Assembly: GCF_000764305.2 (NCBI RefSeq)
Contig: NW_025940926.1
Location: 62,001-126,000 of the forward strand
Direction of reading: 5' to 3'
DNA: 64,000 nucleotides
Origin: Hyalella azteca
Lineage: Eukaryota; Arthropoda; Malacostraca; Amphipoda; Hyalellidae
The notes under the pieces are model-generated. The model was not told the DNA's origin, did not search any database, and was given only the letters and a program-made list of their open reading frames with translations. This document shows positions 8,623 to 64,000 of this stretch, one piece after another. Position numbers and translations under genes: made by a program. Every line of letters starts with the position of its first letter. Within the stretch, counting starts at the first letter, position 1.

Positions 8623-11600
8623 ATGCCATCTCAAGGTGAGTGAAAAATTAATGTCTTATCAAGTTACCATCCTTTTTATGCTTGAGTTAAACTGCTTTTG
8701 TAAGAAAATTGCTATAAATTCTTTATATCATTGGCAAATATTCATAATTCATATTAAGTTCAAAATTTCAGTCTTTATGCTAATTAATAGGTTTGTGTTC
8801 TTCTGCGTGGGGTATTACTGATTTTTTATCAAAATTCTCATATATATGTCATTTAGTGCACAAATAATTTATTTGGAAAATTTAAAGCATTCTCGGCCTA
8901 TGTAGGTATTTATTCTTCGTTACTATTTAATTTTCAATGTGTACCTACTTATTTAGGTACATGTTTCCTAACAATTATTTCAATGGTCATAAAATCCATT
9001 CAGAGCTTCTGATGTATAAATACCTATGCACAACTGGAAATTTTCTCTTTTAGGAGAGTTTACCTGCATGTTTGAAGATATCATTTTTTGTTTGCCCATT
9101 ATCCTCAGCATACTAACATTTTCCAAGAACACTGAAGAAAAGCCTTATGTTTCTTGACCCATTTGTTTCCCTTTTTCAGATGAAAATTTCAGCAACCCTG
9201 TGGCTCCTCCTGGAGAAAGTCTGCCAGAGGAGGCAAGGTAATATCTCAAATTTGTTTACATTGAGCTATTTTAAATACAGGTGTCAGGTGTGGAAAATGG
9301 AAATCATATTTTCTTCAATCCCTGTAATTTATTTAAACAATTTTGTTATGTGTAGTAATGTCAAGTATAATTAAGATGTAATATATATTATAAGATGTCT
9401 GCCTGGAATATGGTAATCCATTTAGAGTGTAATTTTTGAGGAATATTAAATAACAGAAATCTTAAACAGATTCACATTGTTTGTTACAAATAATAGAAAA
9501 CCAGCAGTCCCATGTGACTATATATATGCCCTAATGCCATATTACTAAAAGTATTTTTCAAGTTTGTAACTATATCAGCCAATCACTAACAGCTTTTCAA
9601 AGCTAAACCCTCAATCATGGATGGGAAATTGGCAGCCATGTCTACTTATTATGCTTCATTTACGTACATAAGCAAGTATTCTGAGTCAAGATCTGGTTTT
9701 GGAGCAATCCAATCAAAGTCTTCCTTTGAAAAATGATAATAATATAAATTCAAATTTTTTCTGTAGCCTCATTTGCTGATATGTCCTCATTTGGGTACAG
9801 TTTATTTTGCTAGTTCTTAGGATCTATAAATCCTCACATGGGTGATGAAAATTAAATTTTCAATATGGTGGTGTACTTGTTGCAAAATTTAGTCAACAAA
9901 TGTACGTAAGTTGAAAATTTTGCCAGTTAATAAATGTTGCAATTTAATAAAATATTGTGCTCAAGGGTATAGCTTGATGACAGTTAATTAATAATATTGA
10001 AAAAATAATTTGTAAATTACAAATATCTTTCAAAATTACAAACTTGTAAATATTTCTGTAAAACAGCAAAAAATATCTCAAAATTTTCACTACCCATTTG
10101 TACAAATTATTAGACACAAGGAAAAATTGAACTCCAAAGAAGATATGAATATGAATACAAATGTGGTTCTATTAATTGAAAAAATGCTTAATAGTTAAAA
10201 AAATTCCCTATACTTCAGGGGGTCCAATAAGCTGACAAATGCTGACTTCCGCCGGCTGATGATGACGCCACGGGCGCCAGCCTTGTCCAAGGATGCCACA
10301 GAGACTAGCAAGACACCTGCAGGGGGCGAGGACTCCAAGTTGGCTGCTGCTCAGCGACGGGATCCTAAGGAGGAAGCCCGAGCCAATGAACGCAAGAAAA
10401 GGAAGAGGTGCTCTCTCACTTTTCTCTTTTTTCTCATTTTTTCTCATTTGTAATTTCTAATCTTACATGTGGTTTAATGCTGCTAATGTAATTAATGACT
10501 ACTCTTTCTATTCTACAAATGTTTTTTTTTAAACATCCAATGAAGGAAGCTTGAGCCAGTCAATACAAGATAAGAATGAAGCTCTCCATTTGTGGCTTTT
10601 GTAAGATCTGATTTTATCATAGAAATACACTGCCAATGTGGCAGTGTACCGGTATTGTAATACACTACATAAGAAATATAGTAGATGTATTCCATTATTA
10701 TACGTACTTTCCTAATGTTGAATGTTTCTTGAGTTATTATTTATGACTATTTTCCTGCTCCTTATTTTGTTCTTATTGCAATTGACTGCATTTAATTTTT
10801 AGTAGACGTTCTGTATAACTGGAGTAATTGTTCAGTATAATTAAATTATATAAATTGCCCTTAATTTTTTTAAGTTTGGTTGACTTTTGTCAGCAACTAT
10901 CCCTGCCTGAAGAAGGAGGATAAGCTACTAATCATGCTGTATTGCTGGAGTCTTTTTCCTATATACTTAGAAATATAAATTTTCAAATTACACTATATAT
11001 CACTGTAGAAATTACCCTATATTTCAAAATAAGAATTTCACTATATTTAATGACTAACGGTTTACTTTCTGCAGTTACTACGCCCGTCTGAAGAAGGAAG
11101 ACGAGCTACTAATCATGCTGTATTACTGGAGTCTTTTTCCAATATACTTAGAAATATAAATTTTCAAATTACATTATATATCACTGTAGAAATTGCACTA
11201 TATTTCATGACTAATGGTTTACTTTCTGCAGCTACTACGCCCGTCTGAAGAAGGAAGACGAGCTACTAATCATGCTGTATTACTGGAGTCTTTTTCCTAT
11301 ATACTTAGAAATATAAATTTTCAAATTACATTATATATCACTGTAGAAATTGCACTATATTTCATGACTAATGGTGTACTTTGTGCAGCTACTACGCCCG
11401 TCTGAAGAAGGAAGACGAGCAGAAGATGGCAGAGCTGGCAGAGAAATACCGCGACCGCGCGCTGGAGCGGCGCGACGGTGTCAACCCTGACTACCACGTC
11501 GAGGACGCGTCTGCTGAAGGACAGGGTGCCTACAGGGCCGTCGCTCCCGACCTCAAATCGTGAGCTGGACAACCTATACGAGTCGTGATTTATTGCGTGT

Positions 11601-14600
11601 TGGGATCTCTCAGTGTTGTCATCTTTATTGCATTTTGTGCTGGTCAAGTCAAGTAGCTCCTTCATCTTCATTGCGTGTAGTGCTCGCCAGTCTACCTAGT
11701 ACCTTTATCGATTACTTTTATGCAAACCCAGCTTATTTCTTACCAGTTTATTGACTACCACTTGAAGGTCCTTTTCATATTGTCACGATGTACCATCAGG
11801 TACCCGTTGTTAACCACCAACTAATTCTAAGTAATAAATAGATTATAGTTGTATTTTATTCTGTGTAAAGCACTGAAAAGTAGTGAATTAATTGAACATA
11901 TTGATTGAATTTAATAGTGGGTAACGTACTTGGGTCTAGATGAGGGAGCAAAGAGCAGCTGTTACAAATTGCTACCATATTGTGTTAATCAGTTAACACT
12001 TTTGTGACGTGTAAAGTAACTAACCAAGTTTCCCTCATACTTGGTAAATGTTCAGGTTCAATTTGGAATGACGTCGCTTATCACGAGTGATACCTGTGCT
12101 ACAGTTAGGTTACTATATTGATGTGTATATAATAAGGTCATGTATTATTCTCAATTGGGAAATAGTCGAGTGTATGCTATGAGATTAGGTTGAATATACA
12201 AGAGTCAAGTAGACACTGCGCTACAAAAATCAAGTTGAAAGCACAAGAGTTGAGTAGAGAGCGCGCAAGAGTTGAGTAGAGAGCGCGCAAGAGTTAAGTA
12301 GAGAGCGCGCAAGAGTTGAGTAGAGAGCGCGCAAGAGTCAAGTAGAGAGTGCACAAGAGTTAAGTAGAGAGCGCGCAAGAGTTAAGTAGAGAGTGCCCAA
12401 AGTCAAGTAGAGTGTGCAGTAAAAGCTCAAGCATAAAAGTGCAACTGTGAGTTGTTGTGCAGAGGCTTGGATGCTGCTGAGCGCCGTAAGCAGATGATCC
12501 AGGAGTCCAAGTTCTTGGGAGGCGACATGGAGCACACACACTTGGTCAAGGGGCTGGACTACGCCTTGCTGCAGAAGGTTGCTATTTTAATAGTACTAAG
12601 AATATTTATTTTTAAACTAATTAATGACGGGGCAATGCCCTGCTGCAGAAGGTTGCTATTTTAATATTAATATAATTATTTATTTTTAAATTAATTAGTG
12701 ACGCGGTTATGCCCTGCTGCAGAAGGTTGCAATTTTAATATTAATATAGTAATTTGTTTTTAAATTAATTAATGACGCGACTATGCCCTGCTACAGAAGG
12801 TTGCGATTGTAATAAGTATAATATATGGCGCCATTTTTTATAAAATTATCACGTTATGAATGAACCCAAAAAATGTGTAATTTATCAATGATTCAAGGTA
12901 TTCACGTTTTGTCATACAACAGAAAATAATTATGATTTTTGGCACGTACAGTACTAGAAACAATAAATTAACTTAAGATAGGAGTTCGTGGCCGATACTG
13001 GCTATAATCTGCTGTTCATTTGTTTTTTCCTTGTACCCGAGATATCACAATAGAACCATATTGTTGTGCATGATGTGTAGATGTGCATATAATGTTTCAT
13101 ATGGCAAACCAATCACAAATAATTTATATTAATGTCTACAAAATTAAATAAAGTTGATATGAATGTGGAAATAATCACGTCTACTTAATATTAATGCCGA
13201 CACAATCGTGAATAGTTGTTATGTATTTCCACACAATCACGAATACAAGAAATGAATGTCCTCTACTGCAAATCTGACAAATTCCTTGCCCCTGGAGCCA
13301 AAGAAACCATAATCTTAAAATATATTTATTGTAATAACGTTACCATGAACAGGACTGCAATATATTTTGTAGAAACTACGCTATTCAGAGATTTAAAGAT
13401 ATTTTAAATGTTGAGGTTCTGAAATTTTACCTTCATCTTTTAGACAAAATTTTGTATCATTTGAGTTGTTTTTCTGGTCTTAATAATAAAGCTTGTTTTT
13501 ATATAAAGTTTTTAATTGTATTTTTCTCTCAAGGTTCGGAGTGAAATTCTGGCAAAGGAGGCTGCGGAGACAGAGGGGGATGGTGGCGATGGTGATGCTG
13601 GCAGTGGTGATGAAGCATCAAAAGATGATGATAAGCCTGCTTTCAAGTGAGTTAATTCTGGCACTTTTTGTCACATTGAATCAAAAATTTTGACCAACGT
13701 CAACTGACGCGGTGCACCAGGCAGTATGTATTTTTTTCATGTGCATTTTAACATCAAAGTATTGGCCAATTTTATGTTATTTGTGTGGGTGCATTAGGAG
13801 TGTGGATTTTTTTAATTGCATTGTTTGACTTGACTGGTCAATACTAAAACACCGGTCCATTTTTTTCGCAAAAATGCTAAAATTACATAGATGGTTTGAT
13901 GTGAATAGAGGATGAACAAGTTAGCTGGCCCCTGTTTTGCATTAATCTAAGCTATCTTCATTATCAGCCAATCAGGCAGTCGTCAGTTGGAAACCACTAT
14001 AATCAAACATGTTTGGTTTAATTGGCCACTACTTGCTGTTGCCCTACCAAGCAGCCAGTACCCGTCTATACGAGGCCACCAGCCCGATAATTAGGGACGG
14101 TAAATTTTTGCCAGTCATGGGGGCTACCACAACTGGCTATGTGTAAACGAACCTGTATATATATTTGTCCTGGGCTAGTGTGTGTTCAACACTGATATCG
14201 GCGCATGTTCCGAGTTCAACTTATGATTTGGCGGAGATAAATATTATTGAACTGTGCAGAACTGCGCTGGGCCGACGCGTATTCAACGTTGTGATGTCGG
14301 CACGTGGAGGTCCTGAGTTCAACGACCTTTTCCTGCCGGGGCGCATGGCGTACAGCATCGACCTGGAGGCGGACGACGAAATCCCAACCACCGTCATTAG
14401 ATCCAAGGCTGACCTCCAGGGCATCGAGGTCTGGGCATTGGAACTGCTTAGTGTAATATACTGACCTCCAGGGCATCGAGGTCTGGGCATAGAACTGCTT
14501 AGTGTAATATACTGACCTCCAGGGCATCGAGGTCTACATCGAGGTCTGGGCATAGGAACTGCTTAGTGTAATATACTGACCTCCAGGGCATCGAGGTCTG

Positions 14601-17600
14601 GGCATAGGAACTGCTTGGTGTAATATACTGAACTCCAGGGCATCGAGGTCTGGGCATAGGAACTGCTTGGTGTAATATGTCTGCTAACATGACCTCTTAG
14701 TTGCCAGAACATGCATCTCCTGGTGTATATATATGCCTGTTAACATGACCCTTTTAACAGATCATGAAGATCATAGTATAAACTCTGGCTAACATGTCAT
14801 AGTATATACCTCGGCTAACATGTCATAATATATATACCACGGCTAACATGTCTTAGTATAATATAATAATTTTTGAGTATATAATATACTCCGGCTAACT
14901 TGTCATAGTATGTACCCTGGCTAACACGTAATGTTTGTCGGCAGAACATGCAAGCGACGTTCACCAGTAACGACCTGGTCATCCAGAAGCTGTCACAGAT
15001 TCTCTCGTATCTGCGCACCGGACGCACGTCTAAGAAGATAAAGAAGAAGGAGCTCAAGAAACCTGATGTGAGTGTAAGACACCTGGATAAAAATAAGGCC
15101 TTATTGTTATACTGCCATTCGTATTTTATTATCTGCTCTTTGTTTTGTTTAAGTAGCGTCAGAATGATTCAGATGTCTTGCATCTCTGCCAAAATGAGAT
15201 TTCGCAACTTCAATATTATCTTCATTGTAATCTTTGTTTTGTCTAGGCAGCTCCTCCAGAAACCTGATGCAAGTGTCATGCACCTGAACAAAATAAATCT
15301 TTTCTTGAATAAATACATATTGTTTGTGAGTAATGTTAGGATCCAATCCAGAATCCACTATCCGAGTAGAAGGATATATTATGCTATATCTATATTCTAT
15401 ATTATTCATATTATAGGGTAAGGCGGCCGCTGACGATAGCATCTACGGCGACATCGGCGCCTACGCGCCTTCTTATAAGGGTGGCCCCAAGGACGTCCCG
15501 CGCCGGGACAGGGAGCGGGACTCCCGCAGGGACCGGGACAGGTGAGAGGAGCGGGACCCCCGCAGGGACCGGGACAGGTGGGAGAGGGAGCGAGGTTCCC
15601 GCAGGGACCGGGACAGGTGGGAGAGGGAGCGGGACTCCCGCAGGGACCGGTACAGGTGAGCGAGGGACCGGGACAGGTGAGAGAGAGGGAGCGGGACTCC
15701 CGCAGGGACCGGGACAGGTGAGAGAGGGAGCAAGACTCTCGCAGGGACCGGGACAGGTGGGAGAGGGAGCGGGACTCCCGCAGGGACCGGGACAGGTGAG
15801 AGAGGGAGCGGGACTCCCGCAGGGACCGGGACAGGTGAAGGGCGGGGGAGTGCGTGGCCGCAGGGAGGGCTGGGGGAGGCCAGGGAGGACCAGGCCTCCA
15901 GGGCAGCCAAGGAGGCCATCAGTGAATTCCGTGTGCCGGCCACTGACCATTCCGGCGGCACGGCGCTCTTGCCCGCCAAGAAAAGGTAATTACGTGGACT
16001 TAAATTTGAGAAAAATGTATGGGTATGTTGTCCAAAATGTGACGCACAGTCTTGCCCAGCGCATGAACATAGAGGTGGCGTAGCAATGATATGTGCATTT
16101 ACCGATCGAACTAGGTCAGGATGACCCACACCAGGGCAAAAAGTGCATTGCTGTTCGGACATACTCTTGTGTCCATTGATTTTTATCTACTCAGATGTTC
16201 CTTTCCTCTTATCAAAGTAGGTGCCCATTACCATGGACCACTTGTTCATAAACGCCCATTAATCATCGTTACGATTATTTAGATGTTAGTATCCCTGCTG
16301 GCATAACTGCATTTCATTAAACTTTCTTTAAAATTTGTAGCAAACTCATGGAAGAAAACTTCTACACGGAATGCTACCCCGATATGGCAGAGATGCACGA
16401 TGCTATTGATGATTCTGATGATGAGGCTGACTACACTAAGATGGACTTGGTGAGTAATTTGACTCTATTGCTAATCATTGATTTTGAGATTAATTTATGT
16501 ATACAGGTTCCGATAATATGTTGTAATCTCTTTGTATATTTAACATGCTGATTTATTCATGCATTTCCCGTTATGAAGAGCCAATCGTTATGTAGCCAAG
16601 ATGAATTTTTCATGCCGACTTGAGCGTACAAAATTCGGTGACAAATCTGACTGAAATTTTCAGCATATAGAATGCTTAAATAAGAACAGAAAGTAATGTT
16701 TATTTGTAATTATAGTGGATCATTGCTTAACATGAAGATTCAGTCACGTTTTTTTTCAAGATTTCCTGACATTTTTCCTTAAGCTTTTTCTACTCAATTG
16801 AAAATGCCTATTTTATAGTCTACAGTTTTATCACTTCATCTTTGGTTAAAATTTTTTGTCTGGTTTGATAATCACGTCAACTAGCGAGGACAGATACGTT
16901 AACAATTTTTCTTTAGTCTAATGATCAGGACAACTGTAAAGTAGCCATACGTTTACATTTTGTCTTGTTTTATGATCAGGGCAACAAGAAAGGTCCCATA
17001 GGGCGGTGGGACTTCGACACGACGGAGGAATACAGTGACTACATGAACCAGAAAGAAGCTCTCCCTAAAGCGGCTTTCCAGTATGGCGTCAAAATGGCTG
17101 ATGGCCGGAAAACTAGAAGAATACCAGGTAGGTATCATTATTAATACACATAATATGTATTATTTAAATATGTAACAATATTTATTTATGTATTATGTAT
17201 ATGTATTGTCATAACAACGTGTTCGCGCAGGGTCGCGCGAGAAAGACCGGAACGCTGAGCTGAGCCGCGAGTGGCAGCAGATACAAGCCATCCTACAGAA
17301 GCGGAAGGGAGAGGCGGACCTCGGGCCCCCGTGAGTGAAGGAGGCGTGTGGGGACATTAGCGACATGTAGGGACGTGTGGTGACATATAGAGGCGTATGG
17401 AGACGTGTGGTGACATGTAGGGGCGTATTGAGACAGGTGACATGTAGGGGCGCTTGGAGACTGGTGACATGTAGGAGCGTATGGTGACGTGTGGCAAAAT
17501 TGTGCTTTATTTTATTCGTATCGGTACGTATAACTATGTCCAGTATTGGCACTCGATTGTTTTTCTCGAAGTCCGTGGGTTTTTCCACTAATTCGTATTT

Positions 17601-18514: not shown

Positions 18515-19330
18515 GAGAACGTCGCCTTCATCACTTGAAGCCGTCCGTATCCAGGCCGTAGATCGAACCAGCCCATGTGCACGGCTGTGCTCCCATGCAG
18601 TTCCACTGGCGAGATGGGCTGGTTGGTACTTGGTCGCAGTACGAGCTAAAGTCTGGGTATGAAGTGATGGTTCCTGTCATGGGGCCACATTGGACTGGTC
18701 TTCAGAGGCTCCCGCAAATCTGAAATGAAACGAAGTGATGGTTGGATGCAACAACGTTCAGTGGTGTTCCGGTGGACAATCATTACACTCAGGGCTATTC
18801 ACTTCAGAATATGGTGTCGTAAAGCTCCTAATATTAATATATAAAGCAAGATGATCATCATCTGATGATGTCATGGGCAGATAGGCTGGTTGCCAACTTC
18901 AGGGTTAATACGTGGCTCATTGGTGCCTGGTGCCTGTCACTGCCTGGTGGTCTTCTGGAAATATGCTAGGCGAGTAGGCGTTCTTTTCAGGGGCCAGCCT
19001 GCCAGGGCTAATTAGTGCAAAATTTTAGTAATTGCCTAATTGTTGGTGCATGCAATTTGAAGGCCTTCTGAAGTTCTGAGAGTGCTATTTGTTAAGGATG
19101 TGGCACTTACTGTGACTTAGTAGCCTACTTCATAAGGCAATGCCAGTTATTGGGCTGCTGGAATGCTTTAATACACTCTTCACAGTCTCTTGTAAGTTGT
19201 AACTTGTAAGCTGTTCCACTCCTTTGAGGCTATTGGAGAGCAACAAGCAAGCTGTTGCTGGATTTGGATTTGGATTTGGGGCGTGGTGAGTGGTGACTCT
19301 GAGAAAAAGAATTTCAGGGTCAGGCCTTTG
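18515..19330. repeat. Copy 2 of ~1-kb dispersed repeat (SINE-free)
   Basis: Colinear with pieces of 6215-6535, 7340-7430 and 7698-7890. At 19020-19035 the sequence runs GCAAAATTTTAGTAATTGCC without interruption, exactly where copy 1 carries the SINE. Non-coding in all frames; no terminal repeats were identified. Confidence 0.75.
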
Positions 19331-20394: not shown

Positions 20395-20419
20395 AAGTGA
20401 TCATGCATGATGAATGCAC

Positions 20420-27000: not shown

Positions 27001-30000
27001 ATACCATCAAGATAGAAATTGATGCGTGAGTTATACATTTCTTTTGTAAAGGTCACTTAATTAGTCATATGCTGGATTTAAAATGCTTTATAAATTTAAT
27101 GATAATAATGTCATGAATGCCTTCTAATGTGTTGGGGAAAAAAATCTGCACCTATGAGTTGGATATTGTGCTATTCCAGCATTTGTTTACATTAGCAAAA
27201 GAAGTTTCATTTTAATGTTGAATTGTTGACTGGTCTCTAGCTGTGAATAAAATATTCGCGATCATAAATACATGCATTGTGCTCACAATCTGGGAGTTGT
27301 TCAGACCACTCCTCATTACAAATGTAAGAGATCAGATGCATGGTAATGTAAATGACTTTTTAAAGTGGAATTTCAAAAGATATAATGAACATTAATTCTT
27401 AATAACTTAATTAATTTTCCAATGTGAGTGTAATTTATCTCTCACTCACATGCATAATATTCAAATTTAATGTCAAAACCATTTTTTGAGCTACAGTTTT
27501 CCTCTTGTATATATGTATCTGAATTCGAGCCTCATTCCAGGGAGAACAACGTGATCTCTGTCTATAACAACGGTCATGGCATTCCTGTGGTGATGCACAA
27601 GGACGAAAAAATGTTTGTTCCTACAATGATCTTCGGCCACCTGCTCACTTCTTCCAACTACAACGACGATGAGAAGAAAGTCACGGGTGGTCGTAATGGC
27701 TTCGGGGCTAAACTCTGCAACATCTTCAGCACCAAGTTCACCGTTGAGACAGCAAATAAGGAGTACAAAAAGAACTTCAAGCAGGTGTGCACTGTCATCT
27801 TTAAATTTTGTTACACCTGCTTCCATATTCAACAAAATTACCAACAATGTCTTTTTTTTTAAATAGAATTCCTTTTACATTTTTACTCAATATGTCTAAT
27901 AACTGCTGTTGATAAATGTTCTAATTATCAGCTTTTGTTTGTGGGGTTCAATCTACTTGTCCAAGTGTCTATGCTTCAAAACCCGCCGATTTTGTTTAAA
28001 AAAAACTAAATCACTTTTTAAATATTTAACGGACCATGAATTATTGAAAATTTACAAATATTGTGTGTCCATACATAAACAAAGTTTCAACATTAGTTAA
28101 ACCATTAAAAGCAATAAATTAACAGAAACGAGAATTTTCTCCATTTTAGCTCATATATGGCATGCAGTGAAAGAAATTGAAGTATAGGTACAAGCGTACA
28201 ACATTTAATATAAAATATGTACATATTTTCCATAGCTGCAAGTTTGACCCTTTTACTTGAATTCATTTCTAAACAGACTTGGGCGGTGAACATGTCCAAA
28301 GCTTCAGATCCCAAGATCAAAGACTTCACTGGAGAGGAGTACACGAAGATAACATTCTCGCCCGACCTGGCCAAGTTCGGCATGGACTGTCTGGACCGAG
28401 ACACGGTCGATCTTCTCAGCCGACGAGCGTACGACGTTGCTGCGTCTTCTACGGGGGTTAAAGTCTATCTCAATGGGAAACGAGTGCCGGTATGTTTCGA
28501 TCTTGAATATTTCCTAAAGCTTTATTTTCCCTAACGCCTTGATCATTTTTCATTCACGGGGGTTAAAGTCTTTCTCAATGGGAAACGAGTGCCGGTATGT
28601 TTCCATCTTGAACCTTTATCATTTTTTTCTTTTCATGCCATTATCATTGCTCTGTTTCATGCATCACTGCCTTTTTTTTGCTTTTCCCGTTAATTAATAT
28701 GAATTGTTTTATGTGCACCGTAGTAATGAGTGCCTTATAATTTTCAACCTGAATTTGAAGGTTCCTGGTTGAGGCTTGTGATTAAATAAATTTGATGTAT
28801 TCCGTAGTTTCTTTTTGCCAAGGGGAGTTGTGACAAAGAAAAAGAGCAAGTATTTTTCTGATGAGAGTTTAGTTTATAATAAAATGTTTCTGCCCTTTAT
28901 CTGTAATGCATTTTAAACGCTTACTAAGTTATTTGCATCTCATTGCCTTCTAATATTGTGTTTTTTTTTTTTTTTTTTTTGCCTGATCCTCCTGAAGTAA
29001 TTTCTGTCTTAAATTTTAGTCCTTAGAAAAATATTTTTATGACGTATTTATTATTTCTGCAGGTGAAGTCGTTCAAAGACTATGTTGAACTGTACATCAA
29101 GGATCGCACCGACGATGCCGGTGCTCCTCTCAAAGTTGTGTATGAGAAGCCCGGACCTCGCTGGGAGGTGGCGGTCACCATATCAGAGAAAGGCTTCCAG
29201 CACATGTCTTTCGTCAACAGCATTGCCACAACAAAGGTAATCATTTACACTTATCATTATGCACCCTAAGCTTACTATATTTCAAACGCTAAATTACACA
29301 CTCCCACAAACCCAGCCAAGTTGATCCCGTTAAAAATTTGTAGTGTGATCTTGGTAATTTCATAGAAAACCACGAAACGGCGAGAAAGTCTCGATCTTTG
29401 CTGGTCTTTTAAAGAATTCTCAAGCGTATTGTAACATTCACCAGATTTTGATCATTGTATCTACTTCTTGCCAACAGCTTATTCAATTATTCCCTATTTT
29501 CTCATCACAGGGAGGTCGCCATGTGGATTATATTACGAACATGATTGTGAACAGTCTCACAGAGACTCTTTCCAAGAAGAACAAGAGCGGAGTTCAAATC
29601 AAGAATTTCCAGGTAAGCCAAGTTTCTATCTTTCTGAACTGACTTACCTTGCAAATTTCTAAATCTTGATCAATATGTTCCCCTCTCTGAAGAGCCAAGA
29701 ACTTGTTATACTATGTTTACTATTGCCCATGATTTGTACCTATATAGGGCATGCCAACATTATATATTATTTGCATATCTTCTCTGAGCATTTCTTCTTA
29801 TGAAATTTGCAAGATGCTGCTTTGTAAATTTTCTTGCGTTTCCTACAGATCAAGAACCATCTATGGGTTTTTGTCAATGCTCTCATTGAAAATCCTACAT
29901 TCGACTCGCAAACAAAGGAAAACATGACACTGCAACAGAAAAGCTTTGGCTCAAAGTGTACTCTGTCTGACAAATTTGTTGCTGCTGTGGTTAAATCTGG

Positions 30001-33000: not shown

Positions 33001-36000
33001 TATGAAATTGCAGAATGGGCGCAATTGCAAAAAAAAACATGGGAGAAGTGAGCTTGTCTATAATTGTATGCATTAAAGGCAGTTAACCTATAGAGTTTTT
33101 TTTTTTTTAATTTAGAATTTGGCTTACTTTGAACGTAGATAAATAAGAATTGTGACTCGATTTTTCAGTGACTACCGCGAGTACAACACCGACACTACCG
33201 TTCGCTTCGTCCTGAATGTGCTGGACAACCAAGTTAGGCACGTCGAAGCTGAAGGACCTCATAAGATCTTCAAGCTTCAGTCCAGCATGTCCATCAACAC
33301 AATGGTGAGACGATCAACTATATATTTCATCAGGCATCTTCCCTCCTCATCATTGCTATCCGCAATGCTATCAGATGTAGAATACAGTGATTCATTTGTG
33401 GGTGTTGATATTGGTGAAAAAAAAATCATGCAAGTTGAGACTGACAAAGCTCTTCTGTTTATTATTTATGCCTTGTTGGTTTTTATCTTAACCCGTCCAC
33501 TAATTCACATTCGTATACCCGTCCACTCATTCTCATTAGCGGAAACCTTGGTCTTTCACGAAATTCTAGTATTGTCACAGGTGTCAGCTGCATTGGTCGT
33601 CCGCTAACATAACCACGGCCTCACTCTCAGAGGCAACCTATACGCCGTTAGCTTTACTCAAGTCTATGACTATAGTTATTGGCTACGCAGCTAAATTATT
33701 CAACTATTATTTCCCTAAAGAATCTCGCGGTGTAGCCGGTGAGGAGATACTCGTAGGGGATGAATATCTTTTGATTCATCGTTGTTTTTATGTCTGTTGA
33801 GAATGAACTGGTGCTTGCTGCTTTCAGTGCTGTATAAGCAAAAAATTTTCTCATCCTAGCAAAATTAGTACGGCTAGCATGCTAGTTCAAAAATTAATTA
33901 ATAAATAAAAATTAAGATAATTTTGAAATGAAGTTGAAGTAACGTCATGGAGGTATATAAGGGAACAGTCTAATGCGATTAAGAAATTTGCTTACCTTGC
34001 ACGGTCTTTTGAATTTGTTATCTAATCACTCGGGTTTCGTGGTTCCCTTGTAGAGATCTTGAACTGTTCTCAAAAAATTGTAAATGGTGTGTGGTAAGAT
34101 TCCTATTTGGGTATTTGCTGGTATTTTCATTCTTATTCCGTGTATGTCAACGGAAGTAAGGAACAGGCTATAAAATAAAATGTGTAAACGGGTTGATGCT
34201 TTTTATATATCCTATGTTCATACAACTATTATTTTTTATTTGTATTGAATGTCCTTTTCATGCATTTTTTACTGATGCACTCCGCGTTTCCTAATCCAAA
34301 ATTGACACCAGGTTCTTTTCGATGCGAACGGTGTGTTGAAACGCTACAACAGCGTCATGGATGTACTGCAAGAGTTCTACGAGCTGCGTTTGAAGTTCTA
34401 CGAAAAGAGGAAGCTATACATGGTCGGCATGCTCAAAGCTGAAGCCAACAAGCTATCTAATCAGGTGAGTATTTCAGCTTCCCCTTTTATAGTTCAGACT
34501 ACAATAGCACGAATCAAATTTTATCTCCTGGGCTCAATACCCTAAAGATGTATGAGCAGAAAAATCTTTCAGTAGTTTGTCATAACCAACTTTTTTAACT
34601 TTACTTTGTTGTTCTCAGGCTCGTTTCATCAAAGAGAAATGTGAAGGCAAGCTGGTAGTGGAGAACAAGAAGCGTAAGGACATGATCAACGAGCTCATCA
34701 CTAAGGGGTACGAGAGCGATCCTGTCAAGGCGTGGAAAAAGTCGCAGAGCAGAGAGGCTGCCGTTGTGAGTTATGACCAGGGTTCATTGACGCTAACAAC
34801 TAAGCTCATGAATGAAATTCCCATACATATTGCAATGAAAAAGTTCCAGTGTTGACCAAGAGAGAATGTTGATCAACAACTTGAACTCTTAAACCCAGAC
34901 TCAATTTGACTCGGAAACCCTTTCGATGGTGTAAAATATCTCACTTCATTTGACTTGAATGTATATGTGGTTCCATGCTTAGTTGCTTATAATATCAAAA
35001 GTTGTGAAAAATAATCTAGATTCTAGTCACACATTGAAAATTATATAGAATTACTCTTTGGGCTGTAGAAGTGAGATTACAATTCACTTCTATTCCTTAA
35101 TATTATTCGGTTGACTACATACAAATCTGTGCAAGTCCTCTCATTGAATTATAAATACCGTCTTCTGACGCTTCTTTCATCATAATTACCTCTGCAATTG
35201 AATACCAATACGCAATTTGGCTCCGCTATCTCAATTTCATTAAAAGAGAAAACAGATTGGCTATTATAAAAGGATGATTAATCCCCCGTAACTGGGAAAC
35301 TGGAACCAATGAGCGAAAGTGGGCTGTCATTTCTTATTCTAATTTGTATTGACACTGGAACTTATGAGCGAGAGTGGGATGTCGTCTCTCATTCTAATTT
35401 GTATTGACACTGGAACTTATGAGCGAGAGTGGGATGTCATCTCTTATTTTAATTTGTATTGACACTGGAATCTATGAGCGAGAGTGGGATGTCATCTCTT
35501 ATTCTAATTTGTGTTGACACTGGAATCTATGAGCGAGAGTGGGATGTCATCTCTTATTCTAATTTGTATTGACACTGGAATCTATGAGCGAGAGTGGGAT
35601 GTCATCTCTTATTATAATTTGTGTTGACAGGAAGATGAAGCCGCTGAAGAGTCCGACGCCGAGGAAGAACAGACGGACGATGCAGCAGACTTTGACTACC
35701 TGCTCGGGATGCCGATGTGGAGCCTCACAAAGGAGAGGAAGGAGGACCTCCTCAAAAAAGAGCAAGAGAAAAAACACGAGCTTGAAACCCTGCAAGCTAA
35801 AAGCGAGTCGGATCTTTGGAATCATGACTTGGATGTTTTCATTGAAGAGGTTTGTAAATGTTTGCATGCTGTACAAAAAGTTGTTTTAGTTCTATCAAAT
35901 GATACTCTAATTTTAAACTATTGATACTTCAATTTTCATCTCTTTATGACTTGTAGCTCTGGAAATGAAATGGAATATATAACTTCAGATGATTGTATTC

Positions 36001-39000
36001 CATCTGTTCTCTTCTAAAGAATTTGTGAATTCATTTCTGAACTCGAGCATTGTTTTTAGAATTTATTGCCATTTCAATGAATTGATTCTGCTTGCGCAGC
36101 TTGACAAAGTGGAAGCGAAGGAGCGGGAGGAGGAGAGAGTGGCGAAGGAAAACCTGGCTTCAAAGGACAAGAAAGCTGGTGGCAAGAAGAAGAAGGTGAG
36201 CTCGTGCTTCTCTTGTATCGATATTTTCTCTGTGCAGCTCGTTAATTTCTCCTAGACTGAGAAAAATATATTGCATAGTAGCGTAGCACACTTATTTAGA
36301 ACTCCTCAGGGAATCTAGGTCAATGATTCGTTCATCTTTTCTTGACTCAGGTTCTAGACCTGGTTTGCGGCTCACTTTCATAGGGCCTATATAAATCCGC
36401 CAAATTTGAAAGAATTTCAATTTATTCAATTTTGAGCAAAATGTTTTCGGCAGGTCAACTTGATCCTTTGTCTACGTCTTCTTTACTGAGCTTATTCAGT
36501 GATCATTCTTTAAATTTACTATTATGGCTGAGATCTTTTATAATAATTTTCTATAATCATTTTTACTTGTGATACAAATATTCAGGCGTCTCTGTCACCT
36601 TAGTAACTTAGGATATCAATGTGTCGTTATAATGTCTAAGATATATCTTCCTGTATTCTGCAGAAATACGTGGATGATGTGAGTTTAATGTTATTTCTCA
36701 TTCATATCATGCTTTTCATTCGTGTCATGCCGTAATGTTTTTCATGTCATGGACTGGCATTAATTTTTGTCGTTACAATCATTTTGCATTCTTATCTTTT
36801 TTATATACTTGGATAGAATTTTCAATGATGAACATAACTTATTTTATTACTTTTGATAGCATGTTTATTAGGAAGTGTGTTGCCGATTTTATTCAAGAGC
36901 ATCAGTTCTAATGTGGAAAATATATCTTTAAGATGTCCTTTTTATATATATACAAGTAATTTTGTTTAATTTACCTTATTTACTCTTTAATTCATCTGGG
37001 CATGGTTTAATGCATGTCATAATATGTTGCTTATGATCAGACGGTGTGTGACTCGCTAATGATAACGCTTCATGTGCTAGATTTGAATGATCATTATTCT
37101 TTAATAAAATCATTATTACTTTGCCCTCTCATTTTTCATTCATTGGCATGTGTAAAGTGATCGAGGCAGTTCATTTAGCTCGGGAACTGTTTTAGTTCCA
37201 GCATTTCTTAATCTTCTGCCCAATCCTGAAAGAAACTCCATTGTTGGCGAATTTAACCGGTTTTCCTGTGTGAAAAATTTCACCAAGTTCATGAGGAAGA
37301 CTTCTTATTGCTGCGCAGATCTGGGAATTAATTTGTATTAAACTCCAATATAAAAATTTGTTTAAATATATAAAAAATGTTGAAATTTTTTCGCTAAGAG
37401 CATATTGCAAGAGCTCAACTCTTGTTGAGCATATTGTAATGGTCAATTAAGTTAATTTTATGACAATTTGGCCGATTTTAGGATTATTGGACTATTTTTT
37501 TTTTTTCAGGCGTTGCTGGAAGTGATGCCGTCGCCGATGGGCGAGCGCATCCAGCCGCGCATCGACGCAGAAATGAGGAAGAAAGCAGAGAAGTCGGCAG
37601 CCGCTGGCGCCGCCAAGGCTGGCAGACCTGTAAGTTTAAACCACTGCACACGCGCAGAGTTTTATGGTTCGGCAGCTGCAAGTGCCGCTAAAGGTGGCAG
37701 ACCTGTAAGTTTATATAACTGCACACGCGCAGAGTTTTATGGTTCGGCAGCTACAAGTGCCGCTAAAGGTGGCAAACCTGTTAGTTATATAACGACTCTC
37801 AATATGAGGTATATAATGACTCGAATATTCAGAGATAATTTTTATTGTTTGGCTACTACAAAAATCTGACCGCTGTTGACTCCCACTCCAGAAAGGTTTT
37901 TGGTCGATCGTTAGATAATTTATTAAGAAAGATACGTGATACTAATGCTAAGATATTTAAACATTTCTTCTTGACAAAGCATCCTGATAATGATTTGGAC
38001 AGCTTAGTTGGACAGCTAATAGTTGATTGTTATTTAATAGGAATAATACTAGTGCATAAACTTCAATGGATTAATATCTAGTTACCAAGTATTTAAATGA
38101 TGCTCGCATGGGACTATAATGCCTTTAACCTACGCAGGAAAAAGAGGGATAACACAAATGTTGACTGGAAATGGTTGATTTTATCATGAGTTATAGAATA
38201 ATGCTCGCATGTAGTCATATATAATGCTTTTTCTACCCACGCAGAAAAAGAGGGATAACCCTGACGACGACCACGATGATCTCTGGTTACAAATGTTGAC
38301 TGGAAATAATTAACTTTATCATGAGTTATAGAATAATGCTCGCATGCTGCCATATATAATGCTTTTTTTACCCACACAGAAAAAGAGGGATAACCCTGAC
38401 GACGACCACGACGATCTCTGGTTACAAATGTTGACTTGAAATAATTAACTTTATCATGAGTTATAGAATAATGCTCGCATGTTGCCATATATAATGCTTT
38501 TTTTACCCACACAGAAAAAGAGGGATAACCCTGACGACGACCACGACGATCTGGACGACCTTGTGAGCGCCAACACCGGCAAGTCGCTGGCGTCGCGCCT
38601 CGGCACGTCCCCAGACCTCGTCAAGAAACGCAAGGCAGGGCGCCCCACCAAGAAAAACGGCGATGGACTCAAGCAAACTAAAATAAATTTCCCCAAGAAG
38701 GTTCGCGGCAGAACTTTACCAGTCTTCCATCTCTGTCTTGCCAAATTTTCTGCTTCCTTAACCTTTTTTCATTCTTGATAACTTGATCTGTTTTTCTTAT
38801 TGGGATCACTAAACCAGATCAAGTAGAAAGTATTGAAACTTGGAATCACTCCAGTAGAAAGTATTGAATACTTCGTGTTTTTATTGATAGTTCACTCTTT
38901 TATCCAGATTAAATGAATTATAAAATTATATTGTTGTAGGTTGGCTCCAAGTCATATCTCTTCAGCTTTCTATGTTGAGTGTAATGCCAAGGCACAGGTA

Positions 39001-47600: not shown

Positions 47601-48369
47601 GACATTTCAGAAGACATTATTTCTCGTACCGTAATGGTTTAACTCTTCATTTATTGTGACTTTTACTGACTCTCATAATTGATCCTTAAAATGTAAACCA
47701 TATATGATTGGTGCTTAAATATGTTAAAATAATAATTTTCACGCATTTTTATGGATTTCATGCATGACCAAAACATGTACAGCTTACCATGTATTCAATA
47801 TATTTCGCAGACGTTTCCAGCCTGTATTCTTGTGTTGAAGGCGGCACTAAATATTCATCTCTAAACACATTAATTATGTACTCGTCGTCGTAGAGTAAAG
47901 GTCCTTTTAATCTTTGTCTCTTGATAAATTTTTCATCACATAGGGAGAATTTGACTTCGTCATCAGTAAGATGTTGACTACCCAGACCGATATGAAACTG
48001 ATCGTCTTCGTCTGTTGTTGTGTGCACTCCTCGCGTTGCGATGAACAACGCTCCCTGTGGGGGCACATAAAATGTTACAGTTCATTTAAATTTATATAGC
48101 TCATCATATATTTTATATCAGAGTAGTTTATGCGGTAGACTAAAGGATATGAATAATAAGTATATAACTATTATTAATGATGAATAATGATGAGGAAGGC
48201 TGTCAGCTTATGCGGTAGATTAAAGAATTTAAATAATATGAAGATATAAATCCCGATTAAAGAATTCTATGGCTCATCGCGATGCAATTCTTACCAGCAA
48301 CAATGCGATGATGAGGAAGGCTGTCAGCTTATACGCACAGGAGCCCAAGCGCTTAACGCTGTACCACAT
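44620..48369 (-). CDS. FkbM-family (Star-like) methyltransferase, membrane-anchored
   Basis: Exons, 5' to 3' on the minus strand: 48369-48295, 48054-47788, 47529-47401, 46872-46753, 45627-45517, 44907-44620. All introns are phase 0 with GT-AG ends, giving 329 codons. Exon 1 with the start of exon 2 encodes a type II signal anchor (KLTAFLIIALLL then GALFIA). The family core follows: LVPPSTQEY, GFFVEAGALDGQYLSNSLPL (SAM-binding loop), WTGLLVEANPRSYQKML (the E of VEANP should bind the SAM ribose), VQCFPLATMLLALNVTH, IDLLSLDVEGGEPDIL, and a C-terminal FDYQTDNEG..DYVFVSDKY stretch. The gene belongs to the arthropod FkbM-domain proteins related to Drosophila Star; the substrate is unknown. The start is at 48369; an overlapping 9-codon upstream frame begins at 48382. 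Introns carry SINEs and repeat D. The exon 3 acceptor was chosen for phase and is the least sure boundary. Confidence 0.85.
44927..45000 (+). mobile_element. SINE tail fragment beside a methyltransferase acceptor
   Basis: TCGGTGACAGGCCTACGGCC followed by TAATAAACGCTGAAAC and an AT-rich tail matches the 3' unique region of the SINE at 7431-7697. It lies only about 20 nt upstream (on the minus strand) of the last methyltransferase exon. Confidence 0.75.
45018..45450 (+). mobile_element. Diverged tRNA-derived SINE units
   Basis: 45018-45060 has a tRNA-like 5' half (GGTGACCGAGTGGTTTACCC). From 45240 a diverged dimer follows: GTCAGGCGGTTGAGGGTTA and GGGTTCAAGACC, then GGCTGGACGGTTTAAAGCAC and GTGTTCGACACC. 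The paired A and B boxes repeat the architecture of the 7431-7697 element. Confidence 0.6.
46885..47034 (-). repeat. Dispersed repeat D, copy 2, abutting a methyltransferase exon
   Basis: The reverse complement carries AAGCGCATTTTCTC, CGCCATGTCCGTCTGTCTGT, CGTGACTTCACGTTTTCGTC and GACGAGAAAATGCGCTCTCT. It ends CTGCAGTGAGTACTGAGTTA plus a T-run, 10-20 nt before the acceptor of methyltransferase exon 4 (46872). GCGCATTTTCTC and GAGAAAATGCGC form an internal inverted repeat. Confidence 0.85.
47050..47280 (-). mobile_element. Dimeric tRNA-derived SINE, diverged copy
   Basis: On the minus strand it reads GGCCGGGGTGGTACAGTGGT, then a B box (GCGGGTTCGCTCCC), then a second head GGTCGCCGGGCGGTTGAGCA with GAGTGCAAGACTGC, and a 3' part ending GACGGTTTAACGGCC. 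It is the same dimer as 7431-7697 but older. It lies within the intron between methyltransferase exons 3 and 4. Confidence 0.8.
48115..48225 (-). repeat. Copies of methyltransferase exon 1 end
   Basis: On the minus strand CATAAGCTGACAGCCTTCCT followed by CATCAT, from the end of exon 1, is repeated at 48187-48222, with a shorter copy near 48128-48145. The copies lie inside intron 1, downstream of the true donor at 48294. Confidence 0.8.
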
Positions 48370-59240: not shown

Positions 59241-59246
59241 CTCGAC

Positions 59247-60045: not shown

Positions 60046-60051
60046 TTTATT
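60046..60051 (-). terminator. Likely ALG5 poly(A) signal
   Basis: AATAAA on the minus strand about 240 nt after the ALG5 stop. Confidence 0.4.
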
Positions 60052-60287
60052 GAAGTTCCATTGATCTAATGAGTTCTGCTGAGTGATCATTATAATAAAA
60101 AATATATGCTTTACAGAATACATTAGAATAAAATGATGATATGGTCCCTTCTAAATCAACGTTATTTCCAATTTAAAACCTTCAACACCTCTGTCTCTAA
60201 CTTACTGAGATTATTTAACAAAATTTCATCATAATTCTAGTCATCTCAGAAGAAGTAATACAACAAAATAATTTGCTGGCAGCAGAG

Positions 60288-63200
60288 TTATTGGAGCGAC
60301 GGGTTTATCCGCCAGGCACCTATCCTGTAGCGCAGCCAGATGAGCACCAAGTCAATGCCCATCTCCAGCCAACTCAGCACCGGCGTCACTTTGGAACCTG
60401 CACAACACGTACAATATATAACTAGTGCAAACATGCACACTTTAGAGCCTGCACAACACGCACACTTTAAGAGCCTGCGCAACACGCACACTTTTGAGCC
60501 TGCACAACACGCACACTTTTGAGCCTGCACAACACGCACACTTTAGACTTTAGAGCCTGCACAACACGCACACTTTTGAGCCTGCACAACACGCACACTT
60601 TAGAGCCTGCGCAACACGCACACTTTTGAGCCTGCACAACACGCACACTTTAGACTTTAGAGCCTGCACAACACGCACACTTTTGAGCCTGCACAACACG
60701 CACACTTTAGAGCCTGCGCAACACGCACACTTTAGAGCCTGCGCAACACGCACACTTTAGAGCCTGCACAACACGCACACTTTAGAGCCTGCACAACACG
60801 CACACTTTAGAGCCTGCACAACATGCACACTTTAGAGCCTGCATAAACACGCGCACACATTTTATGAGCTAGCACAAACGCACACTTTGAGACGTGAGCG
60901 TCAGCAACAAACAGGCTATTGATTTTATACAATCAGACTATTGATTTTTATACTACTATTATTATTGATTTTTTTAAACAGATTATTGATTTTTATACTA
61001 TCTAGACGCAATATAGAATTCTGGTATACGTTAAGTTTTGTAAGCTTTTGATAAGGTCATGTAGACCTGTTGCTGATTCCAACCAAATTTTCGCATTAGT
61101 TGAGGGTTTTGAGCCCCAACTCGCTGCTTCAATCTTATTGATCTTCACCATTTGATCACTCCAAACTTCACACAAAAAAACACTAAGTTGCTTGGCGGTC
61201 AAAAAAGGTGATCATTCTGTATTCTTCCTAGGTTTCAAATACCAACAAGTAAATAAGAACCACACATGATGTCCAGATCTGTTGTTACTTTCAAGATGGC
61301 ATACTACATAATAAGGTTCACATAGAACTAAAAACAAATAAATACCAGCTTTATTAGTGATTGAAGAGACTCCAGTATCCATTATCCTACTTAATTATAA
61401 CTTATACTCTAAAACTTACGCCATTTAAGAAGTTTAATGAATAATAGCACAATAAGAAGCACCGACCGTCAATTTCTGTCCACCGCACAGCCACCTCCGA
61501 GATCGGAATGCCAAGCTTCTGAGCAATCACCAACATCTCGACGTCAAATGCCCTGGCAAACAAAATAACCATCAAATTCTACCAATACTTATAAATAATT
61601 CTATGAACAGATATAAAACAGTAATTGAAATGATTTAGCATAGCTAAAATTATGGTTTAAGAAGATATCTCCTTTATGATATCTGACAAAACAAACATTC
61701 TTTTCATTAAATAAAAAACGAAGCCCCCATTTCAAAACAATTTCAACAGAAAACCATTAATGATATGATTGGCTATAACCTATATATCCCTCTAAAATGA
61801 TTCCTGGACGTACGAGGCAACGAGTGGATCAACCAGCGCTTTCATCAATCTGCTGCACTGCTATGAAAGATAACGTTGCACGCAGTTCAAATTTTTCCCA
61901 GTGTATGACTCACCATCTTTCAATGTGTAGGTTCTGGAAGATGATTCTAGCAGCTCTTCTAGTGAGGAGCTTGAAGCCACACTGGGTATCTCTGACGTCC
62001 CTGACGGTGAAGAGCCACACGAGGCTGTGGAAGCCGTACATGAGCAGCGTTCTAAACAGAGATCTGTGGGCCACAGAATCCTTCTCGAGGTGAGCGCGAG
62101 AGCCGCACACCACCGCAACGCTGGCGCCGAGATCCACCACGCCTTTGGGGAGCAGGGGTATTAGGGAACACCAATACTCCTGCCTTTACCGCTATACTAA
62201 TAATCACAAACACTTGGAGCTGTAATGCAGCCTGTTTTGAAGGAGCAATAGTGCTCAAATCGTCATTATGTCGAGGAGCTTATACTTCAGGGTGCTCCAT
62301 GTTTTGACGTCTGCACAAGTACGAATCATAGATCCGACACGCCTTTGGGGAGGAGGGGCATTAAAGCTCAATTTCTAAATGTCTGTCTTGAGAGATCATT
62401 AGTGCCCGAGACGATATTATGTCGGGCAGTCTATGCTGAAGTAGCATTAGGGCTCAATGTCTTGACGTCTGCACAGTGAGGTTATGAGAGCCATGCTAAT
62501 GACTTCAATCCCATGATTGCTTGACAAGTCAGCACTTATGTACTCAATGCTTGTTTTTGTAAGAAAAATCACGGCAAAATCCTTCCGTTGAGCTTGAAAA
62601 AAAGATTCCCAAAGATCAACTTGATATTCTCAAAAATAACTTCTAAATTCAAGAAGATATCAATGATGATGATTATTATTACAGATTCGATTCATTTTTG
62701 ACGAAATAAAGAGACTCATACTTACGAATGTAAACTATGTGTCAATCATAGAACAAAGCCACTCAGATTTACGCATGTAAACCCTCTCCATTGTATAATA
62801 AAGACACTCTGCTTCATGCATAAAATCCATACCAACACTTCACGCAATAATAGTATACACGCGAGTAAATTACCACAATAACTATACACGCGTATAATTG
62901 TGATAATTACACGCGTGTGCCTCATCACAGGTCGCGCGTAAGTTACCCACCGGGGCAGAGTTGGGCGATCGAGGCCTCGAGCTTGGCGAGGTCAGGGAAC
63001 TTGGTGGCACCATCGGCGTCTGCGAAGAGGATGAGCGAGCCCCGGGCACGCAACACGCCCTGACAGGTCAATGAGTATAGCAGCTTAATAGGTCAATAGT
63101 TACATGGAATCTCAGCATAACTGAGCAATAGAGTTACATAATATCCCAGCGTAACAGAGCAATAGAGTTACATAGCATACCAGCGCAACAAGGCAATAAA

Positions 63201-63889
63201 GTTACATAATATACCAGCATAACAGTTACATAATATACCAGCACTCGTTGGACTGGACCGCGACTGGCACGTGCCTGGCAGTATGGTGTGAACAAAGCCT
63301 AACTGAGTAAAACAGAGCAATAGATATACATAGCATCCCACCATAACAAGGCTCAATAACCTCAATAGCATAGGTGGTCAACAAAGTTAATTTTTTAATT
63401 TTTAAAATGTTGTTATAAGTTTGTTAAGTTATTCCAGTTCTAAATTAATAGGTTGAGCAAGCCAAGACAAATCAGAAGCGGTCCATGTTTAGATAACAAA
63501 ATATGTTTTACAAGCTTCAGGAACAGAACTTAGGGCAGTTTAAGACCATCTCTCTGGTGGCAAAGAACAGCTCACAAACCTACAGACTACAGACCAAGAA
63601 CAACACATAGATAACATATTAGAAACAACAATAAACTAGAAACAACAATAAACGAGCCTATTGCCCAGAAGTTCACTCACCATCCTGACGGCACCGCCCT
63701 TGCCACGGTTACGTGAGAGCTTGAGACACCGCACAGTGTCGGCGCCGTAGCGCTGCGTGTAGCGCGCGACCACATCACACGTCGCGTCTGTGCTGCCGTC
63801 GTCCACGACGATCACTTCGAAGCTGAACTTGTGGTCGCCATCACGACGCTCCGTCAGGTACTCCAGGCACTCGTCCAGCATTTCAGGCA
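60288..63889 (-). CDS. ALG5: Dolichyl-phosphate beta-glucosyltransferase, 3' five exons
   Basis: ER-membrane GT2 enzyme that transfers glucose from UDP-glucose to dolichyl phosphate, the donor for glucosylating the N-glycan precursor. Exons, 5' to 3' on the minus strand: 63889-63681, 63059-62951, 62142-61914, 61552-61467, 60397-60288; phases agree, about 247 codons visible. The N-terminal anchor and first GT2 strand (about 75 residues in human, 324 aa) lie beyond the right edge. Landmarks in order: EVIVVDDGSTDATCDV, LSRNRGKGGAVRM, LILFADADGATKF (metal-binding DAD), CGSRAHLEKDS, LMYGFHSLVWLFTVRDVRDT, QCGFKLLTRRAAR, HIERWAFDVEMLV, VRWTEIDGSKVTP, WLRYRIGAWR, stop. Three of its acceptors are preceded by tandem copies of themselves. 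Confidence 0.93.
60398..60895 (-). repeat. 25-bp minisatellite built on the ALG5 last-exon acceptor
   Basis: About 18 units; on the minus strand each is GTGTTGTGCAG then GCTCTAAAGTGTGC. The true junction reads GTGTTGTGCAG then GTTCCAAAGTGACG, so each unit is a copy of the 3' splice site plus about ten exon bases. A 10-bp insertion (AGACTTTAG) recurs at two places, indicating later block duplication. Confidence 0.92.
62128..62480 (-). repeat. Duplication including the ALG5 acceptor at 62142
   Basis: GATCCACCACGCCTTTGGGG at the exon edge is repeated as GATCCGACACGCCTTTGGGG at 62328, about 190 bp further. The following intron sequence (ATTATGTCG, then TTTTGACGTCTGCACA-like) is repeated too. Confidence 0.8.
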
Positions 63890-64000
63890 CTGGTGGCAGG
63901 GCAGTGTTTTAATTCAGGCACTCATACAGCATTACGGGCACTGGTGGCAGGGCAGTATTTTTGTTCGGGCACTCATACAGCATTACAGGCACTGGTGGCA
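63885..64000 (-). repeat. Tandem copies of the ALG5 acceptor at 63889, cut by window edge
   Basis: On the minus strand CTGCCACCAG followed by TGCCTGAAATGCTGGACGAG (true junction) is preceded by two or more 57-bp units reading CTGCCACCAG then TGCCCGTAATGCTGTATGAG. The array continues off the right edge. Confidence 0.88.

Follow-up and report, generated by a model that had tools for sequence, protein, structure and literature searches.

The stretch of DNA analysed here, 64,000 nucleotides (nt) of the amphipod Hyalella azteca (contig C2954:62001-126000, from an assembly that totals 518,993,365 bases and 4890 contigs; hereafter the window), raises the question of why intronic tandem repeats so often contain the splice site of their own intron together with part of the adjoining exon. 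The window carries genes for RED, TOP2, an FKBP-TPR protein, a methyltransferase-like protein and ALG5. Clear cases of copied junctions are found in three of these, RED, TOP2 and ALG5, rather than in four of the five, as a preceding sequence-only reading had proposed. The same pattern is present in 18 further loci, and junction copying is a real and recurrent feature of this genome. It probably results from ordinary minisatellite birth at a high rate that is biased towards GC-rich sequence and excluded from exon interiors, so that arrays collect at exon edges.

Copied splice junctions in the window

The gene models of RED (14 exons, 518 amino acids), TOP2 (26 exons, 1618 amino acids) and FKBP-TPR (4 exons) have GT-AG introns and each gives a single continuous reading frame once spliced. 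The ALG5 model is partial, with five exons within the window. Exon 1 of the methyltransferase-like gene was taken from a gene finder, and this gene was left out of the event counts. Among the best 120 of 1670 matches listed, the protein closest to RED is that of Trinorchestia longiramus (80% identity over the full length), followed by those of other crustaceans.

Duplications were called from local, ungapped matches with a score of ≥19 and an offset of 20-300, and a duplication was considered spanning if a splice junction lies inside it with ≥8 nt on each side. Of the 25 duplication events in RED, TOP2, FKBP and ALG5, 11 span a junction. The junction arrays have units of 25-157 bp, and two of the duplications have offsets of about 200 bp (Table 1). 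One Markov-shuffled version of the RED gene contained no such duplication. Tandem Repeats Finder (TRF) reported 45 rows for the window.

Table 1 Tandem arrays and duplications at exon edges of the window, with one ordinary intronic array. Positions refer to the window. HSP, high-scoring segment pair
Feature	Position	Strand	Description
RED exon 4 acceptor array	10894..11420	+	157-bp unit, 2.5 close copies, plus decayed copy at 10894; TRF 11034-11420
RED intron 4, ordinary intronic array	12199..12412	+	TRF, 22-bp unit; no junction touched
RED exon 5 donor array	12559..12814	+	TRF, 74-bp unit, 3.5 copies; real donor 12577/12578
RED exon 7 donor array	14409..14678	+	TRF, 52-bp unit, ~5 copies; real donor 14428/14429
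RED exon 8 donor, two-copy duplication	15053..15293	+	201 bp apart, HSP score 22.4
RED exon 9 donor array	15505..15849	+	TRF, 39-bp unit, AGGT at donors
RED exon 12 acceptor, decayed array	16854..17000	+	TRF, 53-bp unit, 67% matches; real acceptor 16979/16980
TOP2 exon 5 donor, two-copy duplication	28451..28617	+	offset 105 bp, HSP score 53.2
TOP2 intron 15 array	35299..35629	+	TRF, 55-bp unit x6; abuts exon 16 acceptor
TOP2 exon 19 donor array	37594..37793	+	TRF, 75-bp unit, 2.7 copies; donors 37629, 37704, 37779
TOP2 exon 20 acceptor array	38154..38552	+	TRF, 135-bp unit, 3 copies; acceptors 38245, 38380, 38515
Methyltransferase-like exon 1 (48295-48369, gene finder), partial copy	48187..48335	-	28 exonic bases, 121 bp away
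ALG5 last-exon acceptor (60397) array	60387..60888	-	TRF, 25-bp unit
ALG5 acceptor 62142 duplication	62130..62475	-	offset 200 bp, HSP score 25.2; copy with AG
ALG5 acceptor 63889 array	63859..64000	-	TRF, 51-bp unit, acceptor copy; runs on past the window to contig position 126025

All 11 spanning events are among the 14 junctions that the sequence-only reading had listed as copied, namely the exon 4 acceptor and the donors of exons 5, 7, 8 and 9 of RED, the donors of exons 5 and 19 and the exon 20 acceptor of TOP2, and the ALG5 acceptors at 63889, 62142 and 60397. The remaining three did not stand. The array in TOP2 intron 15 ends at 35629, next to the start of exon 16 at 35631; none of its units was found to contain a copy of the exon start with an AG. 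The copy of methyltransferase exon 1 is limited to exonic sequence (48308-48335), the donor being absent from the aligned copy. For the supposedly decayed acceptor of RED exon 8, a single weak match is present at 14708, in which the AG is kept and 6 of 15 positions are mismatched. Conversely, the decayed array at the RED exon 12 acceptor had been missed. Its acceptor copy at 16929 (compared with 16980) has kept the AG with 7 of 21 mismatches and did not enter the event test as a spanning duplication.

The copies retain recognisable splice sites. The unit at RED exon 4 (11389-11559) consists of the 3' end of the intron and the first ~32 nt of the exon, and the acceptors at 10894, 11075, 11232 and 11389, the last being the real one, all have AG (position weight matrix (PWM) scores of 7.3, 8.4, 11.0 and 10.1). 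GT is found in all four donors of the exon 5 array (12577, 12651, 12725 and 12799) and in all five of exon 7, while the donor copy of exon 8 at 15268 has GC in place of GT. In TOP2, exon tail and donor are alike at 28489 and 28594 for exon 5, and intron 19 has arrays at both of its ends. The real ALG5 acceptor at 60397 is preceded by 13 AG-bearing decoys (≤2 of 11 mismatches, real site not counted), whose PWM scores of 8.9-11.8 compare with 11.9 for the real site.

The exon 9 array of RED, located in a region coding for arginine-aspartate repeats, presents nine GT donors in series (PWM 5.0-13.0) and occupies nearly the whole of intron 9 (15542-15883). Within the window, a clear AGGT donor was seen in these units only. 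The gene model places the acceptor of this intron (15884) downstream of the array, and the intron measures 342 nt, which is not a multiple of the 39-bp unit; this figure depends on the start of exon 10, which the comparison with Trinorchestia (by eye) leaves uncertain. A SYF-containing segment of four other aligned malacostracan RED proteins is not encoded by the model, and the exon 9 array stands in its place (window 15417-15985). Either the coding sequence was eroded by the array, or the start of exon 10 is wrong, or the local assembly is wrong. An alternative frame just upstream of exon 10 looks, by eye, like the Trinorchestia sequence.

Excess of junction-spanning duplications

Under uniform tolerated placement, 4.7 spanning events are expected in the window (P 0.0016). 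Since the window was chosen for its pattern, this P value is post hoc and independent loci were sought. The 18 replication loci comprise two genes on the same contig, one cubilin-like with CUB repeats and the other a multi-exon gene that by eye resembles a sulfotransferase, as well as 14 myosin and 2 kinesin loci on other contigs. The two same-contig genes were found by coding signal after the arrays of the contig had been listed. The other 16 loci were chosen, without looking at repeats, from 90 myosin and 141 kinesin Pfam exon hits listed. A second batch of 7 loci was added after the first batch of 11 had been analysed, and the sample size was not preset.

Exon edges of the replication loci were predicted with a small gene finder for which the window genes served as the training set. 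At the setting used, leave-one-gene-out trials brought back 72 of the 82 splice sites already known, and of the 98 sites predicted, 72 coincided with known sites. The predicted myosin exons carry motor-domain motifs (by eye). A looser setting was rejected for its many false micro-exons, and cubilin homologues were dropped as a source of exon edges, being only ~25% identical.

For the null distribution, each array was reduced to a single unit, and a segment as long as this unit was placed uniformly over the gene; placements within an exon or containing a whole exon were forbidden. The repeat offset served as unit length. It is more conservative than the aligned length, which was dropped and gives larger ratios (11 against 2.8-3.1 expected in the window, 17 of 93 against 7.7 in the first batch). 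Duplications lying wholly in exons, the outer ends of terminal exons and predicted exons whose coding signal was too low outside arrays (e.g. 19 of 53 in the cubilin-like gene) were left out of the counts.

At the 278 junctions of the 18 loci, 31 of 132 duplications are spanning (16 at donors, 15 at acceptors) compared with 16.4 expected, a ratio of 1.89 (P 0.0002). The idea that arrays pick exon edges more often than randomly placed ones is thus upheld outside the window. The first batch contributed 17 of 93 (11.4 expected, P 0.046) and the second 14 of 39 (5.1 expected, P 0.0001). Across the score and overlap thresholds tried, the ratio stayed at 1.7-2.1. When random duplications were planted, 384 of 400 were detected, and 9.4% were truly spanning compared with 9.6% called, with the finder's models taken as truth; on planted duplications, spanning calls are without bias.

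A per-position test had been used before event counting. With centred 30-nt segments and a local copy of ≥23/30, it scored 10 of 90 junctions, 331 of 2709 intron positions (12%) and 7 of 723 exon positions, and by itself it indicated no junction preference. It was replaced because multi-copy arrays inflate the intron figure.

Properties of the copies

Units run unbroken from exon into intron, and since the sequence is uninterrupted through the junction they are copies of unspliced sequence. Copies within an array differ by substitutions and small indels. Taking the window and the 18 loci together, 42 of 369 junctions are copied, with near-equal shares of donors (22) and acceptors (20). Among the 184 introns examined, 4 have copied sequence at both ends and 33 at one end.

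The splice dinucleotide is kept in most copies (GT in 57 of 75 donor copies, AG in 48 of 51 acceptor copies), and 46 of the donor and 33 of the acceptor copies (79 of 126 together) score no more than 1 bit below the real site. The median copy is nevertheless weaker than the real site, with 5.0 compared with 7.1 for donors and 8.4 compared with 10.1 for acceptors. In the window genes the protein frame requires the outermost sites, the first donor or the last acceptor, and with these the frames of RED and TOP2 are intact, which suggests that these are the sites chosen by the cell.

The most heavily affected example described here is a myosin locus (L032, contig C4758) with 6 of 10 junctions copied. 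On its reverse strand, at 1877-2566, the start of a myosin exon occurs in a row of at least 22; an AG is found in 16 of these, the real site included, and AA instead in six. Two of the six copied junctions, the donors at 3358 and 4246, belong to arrays that extend into the predicted exon as well, so that the exact site is uncertain.

Array load, base composition and crowding at exon edges

Tandem arrays with a period of ≥10 make up 14.4% of 264 kb of the contig (183 merged arrays). Over the cubilin-like and neighbouring genes (C2954:2001-62000), arrays look denser still than in the window. A 135-kb stretch with little coding signal, which may include genes, contains 73 arrays, and duplication events cover 12.9% of its bases. 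Flanks of these 73 arrays are richer in GC than random places (0.405 compared with 0.368, P 1e-5), and the logistic slope on flank GC is well above zero (9.97, confidence range 6.19-13.61). Exons have a GC content of 0.48-0.60 and introns of 0.31-0.42 in the 15 loci measured.

With the flank-GC slope applied to the replication genes, 24.9 of the 132 duplications are expected to be spanning (ratio 1.24, P 0.09), or 28.2 if the upper limit of the slope is used (P 0.30). On the best reading, base composition together with the loss of exonic arrays is the main cause of the edge excess and explains much of it. The sequence-only reading had offered purifying selection on exons as one explanation, by which detectable copies are confined to the junctions. 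In combination with GC bias this goes far. In its simple form, longer detectability of conserved exon copies, it predicts an excess among old arrays and was rejected as the main cause, because the excess is found in the more similar classes of the replication set (85-93% identity, 18 of 57 compared with 7.9 expected; >93%, 10 of 40 compared with 4.0) and not in the diverged one (<85%, 3 of 35 compared with 4.5).

Arrays also crowd beside junctions. Of 94 non-spanning arrays in introns, 25 lie ≤20 nt from an exon edge, while 7.3 are expected under uniform placement and 14.3 under the flank-GC model. Among 517 planted arrays, crowding of this sort is absent (5.8% near edges, 6.3% expected). What the arrays prefer is therefore the end of the intron rather than the splice site itself.

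Several results weigh against composition and selection as a full account. Edge-associated arrays (spanning, touching or ≤20 nt away) number 66 of 132 compared with 44.7 under the flank-GC model (P<0.0001), and even at the steepest slope 51.2 are expected (P 0.004). Weighting by unit GC alone gives 22.4-22.5 spanning events and leaves a significant excess (P 0.024-0.027), which is uneven between batches: 17 compared with 15.7 in the first 11 loci (P 0.39) and 14 compared with 6.7 in the last 7 (P 0.002). If the window is pooled in, 42 of 157 duplications are spanning, with 32.1 expected from flank GC (P 0.026) and 33.8 from flank and unit GC combined (P 0.056). Non-spanning intronic arrays are only weakly richer in GC than random intron sequence (0.387 compared with 0.361, n=94, Wilcoxon P 0.10, Kolmogorov-Smirnov P 0.04). 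In addition, all P values assume that events are independent, and resampling of whole loci gives wide ranges for the ratio (1.21-2.77 under uniform placement, 0.89-2.06 with unit GC). Every replication exon edge comes from the gene finder, and its exon penalty was adjusted on the very window genes against which its accuracy was checked. The remainder of the edge excess may be due to aged junction arrays, to a GC effect that is steeper at exon-level GC, or to a real hot spot.

Origin of the junction arrays

A local tandem duplication of genomic DNA that happens to include an exon-intron boundary would be the initial event, and later expansion by slippage or unequal exchange would produce the array. 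Arrays inside exons would be removed by selection. Because exons are GC-rich, introns are AT-rich and exonic arrays are selected out, the surviving arrays would gather across and just beside the junction. A copied junction would be tolerated because the outermost site, i.e., the first donor or last acceptor, still gives a normal mRNA, and the copies would persist as decoy splice sites within the intron.

The strongest competitor is that intron ends are duplication hot spots beyond base composition, caused for instance by DNA structures formed during transcription, by the edges of nucleosomes or by stalled replication where GC content steps between exon and intron. The crowding of non-spanning arrays near edges and the edge association above the GC model both speak for it, as does the observation that arrays of the little-coding stretch sit at stronger GC steps (contrast 0.098 compared with 0.073, P 0.002). 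However, the replication spanning events taken alone are within error of the flank-GC model, and arrays beside a junction may once have spanned it and have aged until the copy anchored in the exon ceased to align, for which the TOP2 exon 16 array is a candidate. A hot spot of this kind is considered rather unlikely, yet it is the alternative with the most in its favour. It is improbable that some of the arrays represent intron-gain intermediates or serve regulated alternative splicing, with decoys that are used and so kept. The many copies scoring close to their real site and the AGGT donors in the RED exon 9 array would fit, and models of intron gain from mirages and from junction-crossing duplication are put forward in the accessible parts of the literature (PMC3087553, PMC4974935); the lower median scores of the copies and the length of RED intron 9 argue against it. 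Intron-gain intermediates among the arrays are nevertheless possible.

Two further explanations carry very little weight. Assembly artefacts could be suspected from an apparently untrimmed mate-pair junction adapter at two places in the window and from the coincidence of the RED exon 9 array with the segment missing relative to other malacostracan RED proteins. The divergence between copies by substitutions and indels and their recurrence across contigs make this highly improbable. Furthermore, tandem repeats are the largest repeat class in the related T. longiramus assembly (6.18%, according to the accessible part of PMC7062882), and the high content found here therefore fits the lineage. Least probable of all is an origin by splicing, through reinsertion of spliced or lariat RNA, which the sequence-only reading had considered, or through reverse splicing. 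Beyond the co-occurrence with splice junctions nothing points to it: units hold contiguous exon and intron sequence, unlike spliced RNA, and arrays of similar kind are common away from recognised exons, as in the little-coding stretch. The junction-specific interpretation of the earlier reading is thus partly supported, and on the best reading a splicing-based mechanism is not needed for the pattern; GC-biased minisatellite birth with loss from exon interiors remains the probable explanation.

Comparison with known systems

Minisatellites termed "mirages" are described in amphioxus as tandem repeats over intron-exon boundaries, gene by gene, in the globin genes BflGb6 and BflGb9, Adh3 and troponin C, with PGBD5 also noted; normal splicing and length instability are reported for them (accessible parts of PMC3087553 and PMC3902484). 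On the best reading, the amphipod arrays are minisatellites of this type, a known kind in a new lineage, whereby the assignment rests on the genome sequence of one assembly and splicing and length instability are known from amphioxus. Both consist of tandem duplications over the boundary, on the donor or the acceptor side, and many copies have AG or GT. As far as the accessible text goes, amphioxus units measure 10 to ~160 bp and globin copies are 81-100% alike; the amphipod junction units measure 25-157 bp, with offsets up to 201 bp. Unlike in amphioxus, the host is an arthropod, many genes are affected at once (42 of the 369 junctions examined) and an excess was measured. No report of mirages in a crustacean or other arthropod was found in a literature search that was partly aimed at this point and whose coverage left out most subscription journals.

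A duplication that crosses the boundary and supplies splice signals is also the common feature with the AGGT model of Rogers and the intron gain in a potato RdRp gene (accessible part of PMC4974935). An AGGT in the duplicated exonic segment, as in Rogers-type gain, is present in the RED exon 9 units. In contrast to such gain, the counted copies sit inside introns of the gene models. The same array resembles the dual-specific-site introns in tandem repeats of human UBC and other genes (accessible part of PMC10809524) in repeating an AGGT site. With the exon 10 start of the model, RED intron 9 would not be of this type, because its length is not a multiple of 39, and there is no sign of one site acting as both donor and acceptor. 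With human paralogues that contain internal tandem repeats (PMC2812944), minisatellite expansion touching gene structure is shared. In the accessible part of that report, variable repeats modify the structure of young duplicates, whereas the amphipod genes keep their coding frame, RED exon 9 possibly excepted.

Other features of the window and the replication loci

Inverted pairs of the Tn5 mosaic-end sequence were noted in the window at 5757-5794 and 7048-7084. They are presumably a Nextera mate-pair junction adapter, apparently left untrimmed, and the joins near these positions are therefore suspect. A long open reading frame at ~3374-4275 resembles, by eye, part of a transposase-like gene and ends near an N at 4272. 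Similar dispersed repeat copies lie beside a tRNA-like segment (by eye) at 5580-8050 and 18900-19300 and probably represent a transposable element family.

Larger duplications were seen at other loci. In the cubilin-like gene, two copies of one CUB-domain exon with identical translation (C2954:9958-10086 and 11779-11907) are ~1.8 kb apart, with minisatellites nearby. A partial duplicate of a myosin exon lies ~2 kb upstream of the full copy (L029, 6691-6816 and 8683-8904, reverse strand), the 5' part being common to both. At C3480:70706-73952, a single myosin exon (profile positions 376-436) is present in five versions in tandem, as in genes with mutually exclusive exons.

Implications

The presence of mirages in RED, TOP2, ALG5, the cubilin-like gene, myosins and a kinesin of one amphipod suggests that they are not a peculiarity of chordates and go along with a heavy minisatellite load. 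It also calls for caution: where repeats are enriched at exon edges, base composition needs to be taken into account before splicing is considered as the mechanism. Tentatively, tandem duplication in the lineage of this amphipod may have a true hot spot at intron ends that goes beyond composition, with about one junction in nine carrying decoy copies. If so, intron gain, splice-site choice and the decay of decoys would be directly watchable between populations. The arrays are in any case worth searching for introns gained by tandem duplication, and as natural series of 2 to ~16 similar splice sites they provide a test of how the spliceosome picks one.

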